Source: Actinomycetes bacterium
GTDB lineage: Bacteria; Actinomycetota; Coriobacteriia; Anaerosomatales; Anaerosomataceae
DNA length: 50,399 nt
Reading direction: 5' to 3'
NCBI GenBank assembly: GCA_021372825.1
Contig: JAJFTR010000070.1
Coordinates: 1-50,399, forward strand
In this document: one piece after another, positions 24,794 through 30,739 of the stretch
Position numbering within the stretch: the stretch's first letter is position 1
Layout of the letters: every line of letters begins with the position of its first letter
Position numbers and translations under genes: made by a program
Notes under the pieces: model-generated
The model's input: the letters and a program-made list of their open reading frames with translations, nothing else
What the model was told of the DNA's origin: nothing
Database searches by the model: none

Positions 24794-24822
24794 TTGACAG
24801 AGATGCGTGAGGCTCCTAGACT
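24794..24822 (+). promoter_or_regulatory. Near-consensus housekeeping promoter for the methionine operon
   Basis: TTGACA at 24794-24799 and TAGACT at 24817-24822 are separated by exactly 17 bp, the best sigma-70-type promoter in the window. Transcription would start near 24829, giving a leader of about 360 nt before the first gene. Confidence 0.8.
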
Positions 24823-24828
24823 ATGCAC

Positions 24829-25177
24829 CCAACCTGATATGTCCGCCGTTGACGGGGATGAGTACGCGGGACCGACAGGTCCGCCAGAGAGCCGGGGAAG
24901 CTGAGAACCGGCGACGTGAGGCCCGCGGAACATGGCCCCTGAGGCATCCGGAGGAAACGCGAGATCGCGGAGTAATGCCGGACGGAAGCCCCCGTTACCT
25001 CAGGCTGCAGAGCATACGGACCTCCTCGGCCAAAGCACTCCCGCCCGCCGAGCGGCATCCACCACCGGTCCCGTGCTCGAGAAGAGGCCGCGACTGCTCG
25101 CGGCGAAGTCGGGTGGTACCGCGAAGGCTACGACGCCTCTCGCCCTGACGCACAGTCCGGGGCGGGAGGTGTTTTTT
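24829..25177 (+). ncRNA. T-box riboswitch (tRNA-Met sensing) with intrinsic terminator
   Basis: tRNA-sensing leader of the methionine operon. The T-box sequence GGGTGGTACCGCG is at 25111-25123; its UGGU bulge would pair with the 3' end of a tRNA carrying discriminator A, as tRNA-Met does. Stem I is recognisable: AGTA at 24861-24864 opposite GGAA at 24927-24930 (loop E) flanks the CGCGGG/CCCGCG helix (24865-24870 with 24922-24927). Distally, AGAGAGCCGG (24886-24895) closes with CCGGC (24908-24912). The triplet after GAAC is ATG (24932-24934), followed by purine G, giving a Met specifier. CGCGG near 25099-25103 with CCGCG (25119-25123) forms the antiterminator. The terminator stem pairs 25133-25145 with 25160-25172, followed by six T (25172-25177). 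Uncharged tRNA-Met should permit readthrough. Confidence 0.88.
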
Positions 25178-25191
25178 GTTGGAGGTGGAAC

Positions 25192-26364
25192 GTGAGCAAG
25201 TCATGGGAGGAGATCAACGCGCGCATCGCGTCGGGGGAGGCGGTGGTGCTCACCGCCGAGGAGTTCGGCGCTCTGGCGGCGGACGAGGGCATCAAGACCG
25301 CCGCGCGCAAGGTGGATGTGGTGACGACAGGCACCTTCGGGCCGATGTGTTCGTCGGGAGTCGTGCTCAACTTCGGGCACAGCGACCCGCCGATCCGCAT
25401 GGCGAAGATCACCTTGAACGACGTCGAGGCCTATGGCGGTCTCGCCGCGGTGGACACCTATCTGGGCGTGACGCAGCCTAGCTCGGTGCGAGGCATCGAG
25501 TACGGGGGCGCGCATGTGATCGAGGATCTGCTGCGTGGACGCGCGGTGCGTCTGCGTGCGTCGAGCCCGGGCACGGACTGCTACCCGCGCACCGAGATCG
25601 ACACGTGGGTGAGGCTCGCCGACCTCAATCAGGCGTACTTCTTCAACCCGCGCAACGCGTACCAGAACTACGCGGTGGCGGTGAACTCCACAGACCGGGC
25701 GCTGCACACCTACATGGGGACGCTCTTGCCACGCCTCGGCAACGCGACGTACTCCTCAGCGGGTGCGCTCTCACCTCTTCTGAACGATCCCTTGTACCGT
25801 ACCATCGGTATCGGCAGCCGCGTGTTCGTCGCGGGCGCGCCCGGATTCGTCGCGTGGCAGGGGACGCAGCACAATCCCGACCAGCCGCGTGACGAACATG
25901 GTGTGCCCGTCGCTTCCGCCGGCACGCTCGCGGTGATCGCCGACCTTAAGCAGGCCAGCGCGGAATACTTCGCCGCGGCGACCTTCACGGGCTATGGGAC
26001 GAGCGCGTTCGTCGGTGTCGGCGTACCCATACCTGTGCTCGACGAGGACCTAGCCGCCACGCTCGCGCTCGGCGATGCGGATCTGCAGGCGACGGTGATC
26101 GATTACGGGGTCCCTCGGCGCAGCAGGCCCTCTGTCGGGCGTGTGACGTACGCGCAACTCCGCAGCGGGTGGATCGAGATCGAGGGCAAGAAGGTGCAGA
26201 CGGGCCCGATATCCTCGCTCCCCAAGGCGCGCGCGATCGCCGCGGAACTCAAGCGGTGGGTCGCCGAGGAGCGCTTCACGCTCACGCCGCCCATTCAACG
26301 GCTTCCGCAACCGGGCGAAGCGTCCATCCACACGCTCGAGATCCGCACCGAGGAGGCGGTCTAG
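25192..26364 (+). CDS. Homocysteine biosynthesis protein (HcyBio/DUF39, COG1900)
   Basis: Protein of 390 residues of the HcyBio family, found in anaerobes and methanogens, where it makes homocysteine from aspartate semialdehyde and sulfide without acylated homoserine. Features include TTGTFGPMCSSGV with C53, the substrate region NFGHSDPPIRM, and SSPGTDCYPR with C130; paired conserved cysteines at these places are candidates for persulfide chemistry in the family. The start is GTG 25192, preceded by GGAGGTGG (25181-25188). It is the first gene behind the Met T-box, followed without gap by the NIL-ferredoxin gene. The assignment relies on recalled family work on methanogens; the reaction here is inferred. 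Confidence 0.88.
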   Translation: MSKSWEEINARIASGEAVVLTAEEFGALAADEGIKTAARKVDVVTTGTFGPMCSSGVVLNFGHSDPPIRMAKITLNDVEAYGGLAAVDTYLGVTQPSSVRGIEYGGAHVIEDLLRGRAVRLRASSPGTDCYPRTEIDTWVRLADLNQAYFFNPRNAYQNYAVAVNSTDRALHTYMGTLLPRLGNATYSSAGALSPLLNDPLYRTIGIGSRVFVAGAPGFVAWQGTQHNPDQPRDEHGVPVASAGTLAVIADLKQASAEYFAAATFTGYGTSAFVGVGVPIPVLDEDLAATLALGDADLQATVIDYGVPRRSRPSVGRVTYAQLRSGWIEIEGKKVQTGPISSLPKARAIAAELKRWVAEERFTLTPPIQRLPQPGEASIHTLEIRTEEAV

Positions 26365-26772
26365 ATGCCACGCAAGCGGTTCGACCTCACCTTCCCGCCA
26401 CGTCAGGCGACCAAGGCGATCACCTACCACCTGGTAAAGGACTTCGACCTTGTCCCGAACATCTTGCGCGCGGCGATCCAGCCCGGACAAGAAGGCCGGA
26501 TGCTGCTTGAACTCACAGGGCGCAAGGAGGACTTCGAGGCGGGGATCGCATTCCTTGAGGCCGAGGGCATCACCGTCTCTCCTGCCGCGAGTGACATCCG
26601 GCTGGACGAGGAAACGTGCGTGCTCTGTGGCCTGTGCACGGCGGTGTGCAAGCCACATGCTCTGGAGCTGGCCTTCGAAGAAGGTGTGCTGCACTTCGAC
26701 AAGGACAAGTGCGTCTACTGTGAAGCGTGCGTGATAGCCTGTCCGAGACGGGCTATCACGCTGTCGTTCTAG
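26365..26772 (+). CDS. NIL-domain ferredoxin, partner of HcyBio
   Basis: Protein of 135 residues. Residues 1-~75 form an NIL (ACT-like) domain; residues ~80-135 form a two-cluster [4Fe-4S] ferredoxin with CVLCGLCTAVCKP and CVYCEACVIACPR. In methanogens and sulfate reducers, genes of this design sit next to HcyBio and are thought to provide electrons for reductive sulfur insertion. The ATG at 26365 directly follows the HcyBio stop codon, with GAGGAGG eight bases before it inside HcyBio, so the two are coupled. It lacks a signal peptide and should be cytoplasmic. Confidence 0.9.
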   Translation: MPRKRFDLTFPPRQATKAITYHLVKDFDLVPNILRAAIQPGQEGRMLLELTGRKEDFEAGIAFLEAEGITVSPAASDIRLDEETCVLCGLCTAVCKPHALELAFEEGVLHFDKDKCVYCEACVIACPRRAITLSF

Positions 26773-26799
26773 TCGCAAGGATGAAGGGAGACACGCAGG

Positions 26800-29199
26800 A
26801 TGCCGGACATCCAGCTTCGGCTCGGCCGTGAGGTCCTCGTGATCGATGGCGCGACGGGCACCATGCTCGAGCGTGCCGGCATCCCTGCCGAGCAGTGCCC
26901 TGCACAGTTGTGCCTACTCGATCCCGATATCGTGCTGGACATCCATCGCAACTACGTCTTGGCTGGAGCAGATTGCGTGACCACCAACAGTTTCGGCGGC
27001 ACGCGCGCCAAGCTTGCTCACTACGGGCTGGACGGCCAGATGGCGCAGATCAACCGCGCCTCGGTGCGGATCGCACGTGCGTCGGGCGCACAACACGTGC
27101 TCGCGGACGTGGGGCCGAGCGGGCGCGTGCTCGCTCCTGTCGGCGACGCGGAGTTCGACGATGTGTACGCCGACTTCTTCGACCAGGTGCAGGCTCTCGC
27201 ATCGGAGGGTCCTGACGCGATCCTCATCGAGACGATGACCGATATCGCCGAGGCCCGCTGCGCCGTGCTCGCGGCGAGGGCAGCGTGTGACCTGCCGGTG
27301 TTCGTGACGGTGTCTTTCGGCTCGTCTGGGCGGATGGACCTGTCGGGAACGGACCCCGAGACCGCCGCGGTGATCCTTGCAGGCGCTGGTGCTCATGCGG
27401 TGGGGATCAACTGCGGACTTGGGCCCGAACAGATGCTCCCGCTCGTCGAGGGCATGGCCGCAGCCACCTCGCTTCCGATCATCGTTCAACCCAACGCCGG
27501 TCTCCCTCGACGTGTAGGCGAGACGGCCGTCTTTCCGGGAACGGCCGAGGAGATGGGCCATTACGCCGAGAGGTTCGCCGAGGCGGGCGCGTCTTTGATC
27601 GGCTCGTGCTGCGGATCGACACCGGCGTTCACCGGAGCGATAGCCGATCGCGTGAAAGAACGCGCTGTGGCGACGCGGCGCCCGGTCCCGGAGGGCGTCG
27701 CAGTGGCGGGTCCCCGTCGTGTGGTGCGCATCGGTGCCGGCCAGCCTCTTGCGGTGATCGGCGAGAGGATCAACCCGACAGGCAAAAAGGCGCTTGTCGC
27801 GTCGCTCGCGTCCGGATCGATGTCGGTGGTGCGCGACTGTGCTCTCACCCAGCAACAGCAGGGCGCCCACCTGCTTGACGTGAACGTCGGAGCGCCGGAG
27901 ATCGATGCGACGGCGGTCCTGCCCCAGGTAGTAGAAGCGCTCGAAGGCATAGTCGATCTGCCGCTCGTTCTCGATAACACCGACCCTGTCGCGCTTGAGC
28001 GTGCACTCAAGGTCTACCCAGGTCGCGCACTCATCAACAGCGTCAACGGCTCTGACGACTCTATGGCCTGTGTACTGCCCCTGGCCAAGCGTTATGGTGC
28101 GGCGGTACTCGTGCTCGCGCTCGATCAAGACGGCATCCCATCGACCGCCGAGGGGCGCGTCGCGATCGTCGACCGAGTTTGTGCGCGTGCTCACGAACTC
28201 GGTCTCACGGACCAGGACCTCCTCGTGGACTGTCTCGTGCTGACCGCCGCCGCTGACCCGCATGGCGCCCGGGCGACACTGGATGCCGTCCATGTCGTGT
28301 CGCACGATCGCGGGCTTGCCACCGTGCTCGGTGTGAGCAACGTGAGCCATGGCCTGCCCGGGCGCGCGTCCTTGAACGCGACCTACCTTGCGATGGCGGC
28401 GGGGTGCGGGTTGGATGCTGCGATCGTGAACCCGGGCGACGCTGAGGTCATGCGCACCGTCGCGGCGGTCAACGTCTTACGCGGTGCTGACGAGCTCGCG
28501 TCGGCGTGGATCGCCCGTGTGCAGGACGAGAGCAAGCCAAGCGCTGCACGCCCGGAGCTCTTTGCGTCCGGGGCGAGCACCGTGGCCGGGCGTCTTGCGG
28601 CGGCCGTCGAGCACGGTGACGCGGACAGCGCACCGGTCCTGGTGGAGGAGCTTCTGCAAGCGGGCATGGCGCCGGGAGCGGTCGTCTCCGACGTGCTCAC
28701 TCCCGCTATCCAGCGCCTGGGTGACGCCTATGGCCGAGGCGATGTGTTCTTGCCTCAGCTGATCGCCGCCGCTGGGGCGATGAAGGCCGCTGTCGAGGCG
28801 GCGAAGGCCCATCTTCCCGCAGGCGAGGACACCGCAGAGGGCCGGGTAGTGTTCGGCACCGTCAAAGGAGACATCCATAGCATCGGCAAGGACATCTGCA
28901 TCTCGATGCTGGAGAGTCGGGGCTTCGCGGTGAGCGACCTGGGTGTGGACGTCGCTCCTGAGACCTTCGCGCGTGCGGCGAGCGAGGCCGACGTGGTGTG
29001 CCTCTCGGCGCTCATGACCACCACGCTCGGTGCGATGGAGGACACCGTCGAGCTTCTTGCCGAGACCGGCGTGCCCGTGCTCGTGGGAGGAGCCGTCGTG
29101 ACCGAGGACTATGCGCAGACGATCGGGGCAGGGTATGCGCCTAACGCACCGGGGTGCGTGGAGGCGGTCCGCGCAGCGATCGAAGGAGTGCCGAGATGA
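26800..29199 (+). CDS. metH: Cobalamin-dependent methionine synthase lacking the reactivation domain
   Basis: Protein of 799 residues that transfers methyl groups from methyltetrahydrofolate to homocysteine through cobalamin. Order: homocysteine S-methyltransferase barrel (1-~290) with Zn ligands in GINCG and GSCCGS; pterin-binding barrel (~310-570) starting IGERINPTGKK; B12 cap (~590-670); B12-binding Rossmann domain with DIHSIGKDI, H693 being the lower axial ligand. The C-terminal AdoMet-binding reactivation domain of E. coli MetH (about 1,200 residues) is absent, as in many anaerobes that reactivate cobalamin with a separate protein. The start is ATG 26800. The stop overlaps metV by 4 bp. 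Confidence 0.93.
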   Translation: MPDIQLRLGREVLVIDGATGTMLERAGIPAEQCPAQLCLLDPDIVLDIHRNYVLAGADCVTTNSFGGTRAKLAHYGLDGQMAQINRASVRIARASGAQHVLADVGPSGRVLAPVGDAEFDDVYADFFDQVQALASEGPDAILIETMTDIAEARCAVLAARAACDLPVFVTVSFGSSGRMDLSGTDPETAAVILAGAGAHAVGINCGLGPEQMLPLVEGMAAATSLPIIVQPNAGLPRRVGETAVFPGTAEEMGHYAERFAEAGASLIGSCCGSTPAFTGAIADRVKERAVATRRPVPEGVAVAGPRRVVRIGAGQPLAVIGERINPTGKKALVASLASGSMSVVRDCALTQQQQGAHLLDVNVGAPEIDATAVLPQVVEALEGIVDLPLVLDNTDPVALERALKVYPGRALINSVNGSDDSMACVLPLAKRYGAAVLVLALDQDGIPSTAEGRVAIVDRVCARAHELGLTDQDLLVDCLVLTAAADPHGARATLDAVHVVSHDRGLATVLGVSNVSHGLPGRASLNATYLAMAAGCGLDAAIVNPGDAEVMRTVAAVNVLRGADELASAWIARVQDESKPSAARPELFASGASTVAGRLAAAVEHGDADSAPVLVEELLQAGMAPGAVVSDVLTPAIQRLGDAYGRGDVFLPQLIAAAGAMKAAVEAAKAHLPAGEDTAEGRVVFGTVKGDIHSIGKDICISMLESRGFAVSDLGVDVAPETFARAASEADVVCLSALMTTTLGAMEDTVELLAETGVPVLVGGAVVTEDYAQTIGAGYAPNAPGCVEAVRAAIEGVPR

Positions 29200-29867
29200 T
29201 CATCACACGCCCCCGTGAGTGGGAGCGCATACGCGACGACCTCGACCAGATCGGTGCCCGCGCCGTCTTCATCATGGGTTGCGGGCAATGCGCGACCGTG
29301 GCGCACACCGGGGGCGAGGAAGAGGTCCTCCGCACCACAGCGCTACTCGAGCGGGACGGTAGAAAGGTGACCGGCTGGGCTGTGGGCGAGGTCACGTGCC
29401 ACTTGGGCGGTACTCGCCTTGACGCGCGCAAGCACGCCGATGAGATCGCGGCTTCCGACGCCATACTCGTGCTCGCGTGCGGGGCTGGCGTGCAGACGAT
29501 GGCCGATGCGGTCGCCAAACCGGTCTACCCTGGTCTGGAGTCGGTGTTCTTGGGCAACGTGGTCCGCCATGGAGTATTCGAGGAGCGCTGCCAGATGTGC
29601 GGCGAGTGCGTCCTGGATAAGACCGCGGGGATCTGTCCCGTGACGACCTGCCCGAAAGGGCTGCTCAACGGCCCGTGCGGCGGTATGTGGGACGGCAAGT
29701 GCGAGGTCCTGCGCGACCGCGAATGCGTGCATGTCAAGATCCGCCGTCGGCTTGCCGAGCAAGGCCGTCCCGTCCCAGGAGTGCTGCCACCGAAGGACTA
29801 CTCCAAGAAGCTCAAGCCGGGCTCCGTGAACGTGCGTGAGAGCCGGGCAGGCGGTGGCGGACGATGA
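29196..29867 (+). CDS. metV: MetV-type methylenetetrahydrofolate reductase subunit
   Basis: Protein of 223 residues of the methylene-THF reductase C-terminal-domain family (MetV), the Fe-S partner of MetF in acetogens and related anaerobes. It has CGQC near residues 29-33 and, from about 142, a cysteine-rich stretch CQMCGECVLDKTAGICP followed by TTCPKGLLNGPCGG, which should bind zinc or Fe-S. The ATG at 29196 follows AAGGAG and overlaps the metH stop; the end overlaps metF by 4 bp (ATGA). The metH-metV-metF overlap chain points to one translationally coupled methyl-transfer unit. Confidence 0.9.
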   Translation: MIITRPREWERIRDDLDQIGARAVFIMGCGQCATVAHTGGEEEVLRTTALLERDGRKVTGWAVGEVTCHLGGTRLDARKHADEIAASDAILVLACGAGVQTMADAVAKPVYPGLESVFLGNVVRHGVFEERCQMCGECVLDKTAGICPVTTCPKGLLNGPCGGMWDGKCEVLRDRECVHVKIRRRLAEQGRPVPGVLPPKDYSKKLKPGSVNVRESRAGGGGR

Positions 29868-30739
29868 GCCGGCTTTCGGATGCGCTCGCGCACGGGGAGT
29901 TCGTCGTGACCGGTGAGGTGGCACCACCTCGCGGCACGGACCTTTCCGCGATGACCGCGACGATGGCGCTTCTCGGCCCGCACTGCCACGCACTCAACAT
30001 CACCGACAACCAGGGGGCGTCGCTGCACCTGTCGAGCCTTGCCGCCTCGCGCGTGGCGCGTGAGATGGGGTTCGAGCCGATCTTCCAGCAGACATGTCGC
30101 GACCGCAACCGCTTGGCCCTCCAGTCCGACCTGATGGCGGCATGGACGCTCGGCCTTGAGAACGTCCTCATGGTCACGGGAGACGATCCCCGCTCGGGCG
30201 ACCATCCGCAGGCCAAGCCGGTCTTCGACATCGACTCCACGCAGCTGTTGCGCGTGGCGGCGGGTATGAACGAGGGCCACGACATGCTCGGCCGGCCACT
30301 CAAGGGTGGGACCGGGTTCTTCTTGGGGGCGGCGATGTTCCCCGAAGCGGAGCCGTGGGACGTCCAGCTCGAACGCGCGAGAGCCAAGGTGGAAGCGGGC
30401 GCGCGATTCTTCCAGACACAGGCGATCTTCGACATCGACAAGCTCGCGCGAGCGGTCGAGGCGATGCACGAGGTGGGAGCGAAAGTGATCGCGGGCGTGC
30501 TGTTGCTGAGGAGCCCGCGCGCCATCGACTTCATCAACGAGCGGCTCGCCGGCCTCATGGTCCCCGACGCGATCGCCCAGCGCATCCGGCGGGCGGCGGA
30601 CCCCGTCGCGGCCGCGGTGGAGCTGGCCACCGAGCAGGTCATCGCCATGAAGGAGGTGGCTGACGGCGTGCACATCATGCCGCTCGGGCTCACCGAGGCC
30701 GTCCCGCAGATCCTCGATCAAGCCGGCGTCGGCTTGTAA
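29864..30739 (+). CDS. metF: Methylenetetrahydrofolate reductase
   Basis: Flavoenzyme of 291 residues reducing methylene-THF to methyl-THF, which supplies MetH. Family features: GEVAPPRGTD at the N-terminus, LNITDNQGA, the flavin/folate region FQQTCRDRNRLALQSDL, MVTGDDPRSGDHP, and FFQTQAIFD in the C-terminal half. It forms a (beta/alpha)8 barrel and likely works as a complex with MetV, with ferredoxin or NADH as electron source. The ATG at 29864 overlaps metV. It is the last gene of the T-box-controlled methionine operon; the next gene has a separate candidate promoter. Confidence 0.94.
   Translation: MSRLSDALAHGEFVVTGEVAPPRGTDLSAMTATMALLGPHCHALNITDNQGASLHLSSLAASRVAREMGFEPIFQQTCRDRNRLALQSDLMAAWTLGLENVLMVTGDDPRSGDHPQAKPVFDIDSTQLLRVAAGMNEGHDMLGRPLKGGTGFFLGAAMFPEAEPWDVQLERARAKVEAGARFFQTQAIFDIDKLARAVEAMHEVGAKVIAGVLLLRSPRAIDFINERLAGLMVPDAIAQRIRRAADPVAAAVELATEQVIAMKEVADGVHIMPLGLTEAVPQILDQAGVGL

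Follow-up and report, generated by a model that had tools for sequence, protein, structure and literature searches.

A predicted methionine-specific T-box leader, with an extra hairpin, upstream of an HcyBio operon in Anaerosomatales-type Coriobacteriia

In the DNA analysed here (the window, a stretch of 50,399 nucleotides), a five-gene operon for homocysteine and methionine synthesis is preceded by a leader that, judging from its sequence, is very probably a methionine-specific class I T-box. The full reading, to which we assign a probability of roughly 0.92, is that uncharged methionine tRNA would favor an antiterminator within this leader, so that the operon is read. The features of the leader and the operon are listed below.

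24794-24822, + strand: promoter, with -35 TTGACA at 24794-24799 and -10 TAGACT at 24817-24822 (N17 spacer, 10/12 consensus)
24840-25150, + strand: class I T-box leader (full RF00230 match, 63 bits)
24861-24864, + strand: S-turn AGUA in Stem I (cmscan alignment)
24886-24890, + strand: distal motif AGAGA (cmscan alignment)
24932-24934, + strand: specifier AUG (Met) in the loop GAAC-AUG-G (cmscan alignment; register calibrated by four sister T-boxes)
24944-24997, + strand: stem II (GAAA...AGUA) and stem IIA/B element CGG...CCGUUA (cmscan alignment)
25009-25079, + strand: extra hairpin of ~66 nt between stem II (IIA/B) and stem III (covariation; fold z -3.4)
25038-25045, + strand: apical-loop motif CUCCCGCC of the extra hairpin
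25061-25066, + strand: internal-loop motif ACCACC of the extra hairpin
25087-25104, + strand: stem III (cmscan alignment, fold)
25108-25149, + strand: antiterminator containing the T-box core (-18.3 kcal/mol)
25111-25123, + strand: T-box core GGGUGGUACCGCG, inside the antiterminator
25114-25117, + strand: UGGU acceptor bulge, within the T-box core
25132-25177, + strand: intrinsic terminator, hairpin 25132-25173 and U6 tract 25172-25177 (fold; conservation)
25192-26364, + strand: HcyBio (PF01837, E 4e-144), homocysteine biosynthesis sulfur-incorporation enzyme, with Shine-Dalgarno GGAGG at 25181-25185
26365-26772, + strand: protein with NIL domain and 2x[4Fe-4S] ferredoxin (Pfam/NCBIfam)
26800-29199, + strand: MetH core with homocysteine, folate and B12 domains, without the activation domain (TIGR02082 matched to position 830 of 1182)
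29196-29867, + strand: MetV-like MTHFR partner (PF12225 only)
29864-30739, + strand: MetF, methylenetetrahydrofolate reductase (Pfam/NCBIfam)

The leader, its operon and their conservation

Using cmscan in E-value mode, the T-box covariance model RF00230 was aligned to window positions 24840-25150 over model positions 1-219, i.e., across the whole leader, with a score of 63 bits and an E-value of 2.2e-13. The alignment includes a Stem I with the S-turn (AGUA/GAA), the specifier loop and the distal AGAGA motif, followed by stem II, the stem IIA/B element and stem III. At the default gathering threshold, an Rfam scan gives no match in the leader (63 versus 93 bits); the 93-bit score is a curation threshold, not a structural feature. 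Four of the five T-boxes in the window's genome fall below this cut-off and one passes it, and many T-boxes in relatives likewise score below it; the shortfall probably reflects GC-rich composition. A chance match is excluded, because the AUG specifier is identical in all 38 complete leaders, that of the window included. The minimum-energy fold of the whole leader, with a z of -1.2, is uninformative. All elements named in a preliminary description of this DNA, namely the T-box core, Stem I with loop E, the AUG specifier, the UGGU bulge, the terminator and the promoter, were located within 24794-25191, and the RF00230 match that it proposed to look for was obtained, though under the gathering score. 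The promoter agrees with the consensus at 10 of 12 positions, where shuffled sequences are expected to yield 0.1 such sites, and TTGAC together with a TAnnnT -10 element is kept in most relatives with upstream sequence.

The five genes are co-directional, with overlaps or short gaps, and their order is kept in relatives with long enough contigs. Pfam/NCBIfam assignments bear out the gene content first proposed (HcyBio, NIL-ferredoxin, MetH, MetV and MetF), that of MetV through PF12225 only. In Desulfovibrio, DUF39 (HcyBio) and NIL/ferredoxin proteins are genetically required for homocysteine, without a homoserine intermediate (PMC5764234). The MetH encoded here has no C-terminal activation domain; reactivation of its B12 presumably depends on a separate protein, and none is seen in the operon.

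Among 61 genomes searched, including the window's own, HcyBio was found in 43; two of these matches are cut at the gene start and were left out, leaving 41 testable genes. The T-box core lies directly upstream of HcyBio in 39 of these 41, all in Anaerosomatales-type Coriobacteriia; the preliminary description had proposed to look for this recurrence in related genomes. In the remaining two genomes, which belong to one family of the order, HcyBio has no upstream T-box (G042 and G056; L016, L029, L048 and L049, and for G042 also L077). Every one of the 38 complete specifier loops reads GAACAUGG (GAAC-AUG-G). Among records that carry a name, these loci occur in Coriobacteriia and Actinobacteria MAGs, of which one is labeled Anaerosomatales, and in Coriobacteriaceae bacterium EMTCatB1; it is from these names that we infer the order. 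In a 149-genome sample of the class, all HcyBio matches among those listed are in the Anaerosomatales-type order.

Specificity and mode of control

The specifier columns of the covariance alignment read GAA-C-AUG-G-CC. The same columns in the four other T-boxes of the genome give CUG before ilvD, UGG before trpE, AUC before ileS and UUC before pheS; that is, in four out of four cases the specifier agrees with the downstream gene (Leu, Trp, Ile and Phe, respectively). In this calibrated register the leader reads AUG, and the genes that follow it are those of methionine synthesis. Two tRNAs with a CAU anticodon were found in the genome, one of elongator type and one with an initiator-like GGG/CCC anticodon stem. 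Both have discriminator A, and the UGGU bulge of the T-box core fits A73 of each. The elongator-type tRNA is presumably tRNA-Met rather than the Ile2 tRNA. The bulge of the trpE T-box is UGGC and tRNA-Trp has G73, while the other T-boxes of the genome have UGGU. The methionine specificity first proposed is upheld by the calibrated AUG, its invariance in 38 leaders and the fit of UGGU to A73.

Since the neighboring triplets of the specifier loop are also codons, one may ask whether the true register is CAU (His) or UGG (Trp), in which case another tRNA would be sensed. We consider this extremely unlikely: these alignment columns yield the expected amino acid for all four sister T-boxes, the downstream genes are methionine genes, and a Trp specifier would face a tRNA with G73, for which the genome's own Trp T-box carries UGGC and not UGGU. 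Within the methionine reading itself, a further question is which of the two CAU tRNAs is sensed. The AUG specifier alone does not settle it, because the S. aureus met T-box bound and preferred the initiator tRNA and tolerated an altered specifier (PMC3771891). This precedent, the A73 shared by both CAU tRNAs, and the presence of the extra hairpin only in the Met T-box among those of the genome make it conceivable that the leader senses initiator tRNA-fMet, perhaps with the help of that hairpin. However, no sequence feature tested separates the two tRNAs, and three relatives (L035, L038 and L072) have lost the hairpin while keeping the T-box; sensing of the initiator in preference to the elongator is thus possible but on the unlikely side.

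The terminator hairpin has a folding energy of -32.2 kcal/mol (z -4.5), which none of 200 shuffles equaled. It shares positions 25132-25149 with the antiterminator, so that the two folds are mutually exclusive, and a hairpin with a U-rich tract recurs in the leaders of relatives. A simple terminator scan found no terminator in the leader, and the assignment therefore rests on fold and conservation. Because a strong terminator with a U6 tract excludes the antiterminator, we conclude that control is very probably transcriptional, and at the level of sequence the transcriptional arrangement in the preliminary description is sustained by the conserved hairpin and U6. A mainly translational T-box, which would hide the ribosome-binding site as is thought for the ileS T-boxes of other actinobacteria, has its precedent in the first T-boxes described from Actinobacteria (PMC1262725). 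For the leader studied here it is very unlikely: in place of a hairpin hiding the Shine-Dalgarno sequence, the terminator hairpin runs directly into U6 and ends before position 25181, leaving GGAGG outside and 3' of it; a hairpin and U-rich tract recur in relatives, and Stem I is of the long form with distal motifs.

According to the mechanism we favor, the leader would be transcribed from the promoter at 24794, and its AUG specifier would bind a methionine tRNA through the CAU anticodon. When this tRNA carries no amino acid, its 3'-terminal A73-C-C-A would pair with the UGGU bulge and stabilize the antiterminator, shifting the balance by analogy with the T-box family; the terminator would then be blocked, and the operon encoding HcyBio, NIL/ferredoxin, MetH, MetV and MetF would be read. 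With charged tRNA, the terminator would form and transcription would stop ~15 nt 5' of the start codon. The cell would thus make homocysteine (from aspartate semialdehyde) and methionine only when Met-tRNA charging falls. The tRNA binding, readthrough and physiological response in this scheme are predicted from sequence, predicted structure, conservation, specifier register and the match to the tRNA end.

An extra hairpin domain

Between stems IIA/B and III, the leader contains a hairpin that counts as an insertion relative to the Rfam model and has much the same fold in the relatives carrying one. Both sides change in 9 of its 17 pairs, and 95.9% of cells pair; none of 500 shuffles reached any of five covariation measures, and slid structures drop to 24-38% paired. 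A covariance model of the hairpin finds one site per genome, coinciding with the HcyBio leaders, with the exception of one weak match (G030, E 4e-4). Of the T-boxes in the window's genome, only the Met T-box has the hairpin, and L035, L038 and L072 have lost it with the T-box kept. Against 396 genomes of the phylum, the model gives four matches, in the window's genome and three relatives of the same family, and we therefore reject the idea of a general actinobacterial element. From its sequence and covariation, the hairpin appears to be a new, lineage-specific extra domain; no description of an extra T-box hairpin of this kind was found in the open-access literature searched.

The apical-loop motif CUCCCGCC can base-pair with the terminator's 3' arm, and ACCACC with the T-box core; ACCACC also includes the tRNA 3' end sequence ACCA. 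Pairing between the insert loop and the terminator arm is strong in every leader, at -16 to -26 kcal/mol. When partners were swapped, the total of the true pairs was reached in 1071 of 5000 permutations, and with 13 divergent representatives in 1596 of 5000, which is not significant; shuffled C-rich loops average -16.3 in the same pairing. The swaps, which do nearly as well as the true pairs, lend no support to coevolution of loop and terminator, and we treat the pairing as hypothetical. A CAU anticodon-like triplet beside ACCACC was rejected as a candidate, since it is not conserved in relatives. It is doubtful, in our view, that the hairpin is a working part of the switch. If it were, CUCCCGCC might capture the terminator 3' arm and/or ACCACC might occupy the T-box bulge, as a built-in competitor or second antiterminator; alternatively, the hairpin might contact the tRNA and select between initiator and elongator tRNA-Met, which we consider because of the preference of the S. 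aureus met T-box for the initiator (PMC3771891).

Control of HcyBio elsewhere and relation to known systems

T-boxes with a Met specifier also precede HcyBio outside the order. In the Atribacteria contigs L094, L099 and L105 the loop reads GAA-AUG-G, and in L101 it reads GAAC-AUG-G; these four score 110-135 bits, the Atribacterota pairing being cited at 133-135 bits. In two Bacillota MAGs, a SAM riboswitch lies directly upstream of HcyBio (L089:192-292 and L091:1-98). In those MAGs the RNA element on this gene family responds to SAM, the end product, whereas the T-box described here would sense tRNA charging. The window's genome has a SAM-I-like element of its own before metK (G000:C78:33652-33758, L160; 36.9 bits, below the cut-off).

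As a separate observation, nine HcyBio contigs from Chloroflexota, Spirochaetota, Omnitrophota, Atribacteria and Actinomycetota share a conserved upstream leader with a short ORF, at the following sites.

L097:2375-2441
L102:1894-1960
L104:6389-6455
L110:6412-6478
L115:3258-3324
L116:1476-1542
L118:3338-3404
L128:1669-1735
L129:6394-6460

The layout is a Shine-Dalgarno sequence, a short ORF in which UAUGG and AUG are invariant, and a small hairpin whose variation seems compensated (GCCC-GAAA-GGGC, GCUCC-GGUU-GGAGC). The ORF codes for LW[IVLT]M, or for IWIM in L129, and its frame is the same throughout despite differing start codons. A 14-mer of this leader occurs once per genome in four genomes tested, and no Rfam model matched the leader in the contigs scanned; it may represent a leader peptide or RNA of HcyBio that has yet to be described. 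In the Geothermincola contig L097, a Met T-box-like element with an AUG-bearing stem I, a stem II and a degenerate T-box core (L097:2115-2418, 82.6 bits) is followed by a terminator-like hairpin, the LWIM short ORF and HcyBio.

With class I T-boxes (RF00230), the leader in the window shares the Stem I S-turn, distal motifs and specifier loop, stem II, IIA/B, stem III, the core and the terminator/antiterminator pair; it differs in its GC-rich composition, its score below the Rfam cut-off and the covarying extra hairpin. Met T-boxes are well known in Firmicutes, mainly in Lactobacillales and staphylococci (PMC3766115, PMC3771891), and these have in common with it an AUG specifier and transcriptional control of methionine synthesis genes. 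The staphylococcal one, however, controls metICFE-mdh, whereas the leader here would govern homoserine-independent synthesis through HcyBio; it also belongs to an actinobacterial order, in a genome where metK is preceded by a SAM-I-like element. In an early survey of Actinobacteria, ileS was the only gene preceded by T-boxes, which were thought to be translational, and methionine operons showed no conserved RNA structure (PMC1262725); a later survey reports 32 T-boxes, spread over 12 of 19 genomes (PMC2494555). The ileS T-boxes of the same phylum sequester the Shine-Dalgarno sequence (PMC1262725), whereas the leader studied here has an intrinsic terminator and reads AUG. The mostly Ile-specific, translational picture of actinobacteria given in the preliminary description does not fit this order: with four more on ilvD, trpE, ileS and pheS, full-length RF00230-type T-boxes are the rule in the lineage. 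What may be new, as that description proposed, is the pairing with HcyBio genes, Met T-boxes themselves being familiar from Firmicutes. No paper in the open-access literature searched names T-box and HcyBio together, and T-box with DUF39 returned only a Bacillus transcriptome paper; judged from this literature, the pairing is likely to be new.

Taken together, these data point to methionyl-tRNA charging as the likely physiological signal for the HcyBio pathway, a homoserine-independent route with enzymes that are still little understood, and this signal supports a role of HcyBio in the methionine supply of uncultured anaerobic actinobacteria. They also suggest a division of labor within one genome, with tRNA charging governing methionine synthesis and a SAM-I-like element governing metK. 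Transcriptional Met T-boxes are thereby extended beyond Firmicutes, to Anaerosomatales and Atribacterota, alongside a SAM riboswitch on HcyBio in two Bacillota, and the extra hairpin provides a testable addition to T-box architecture.
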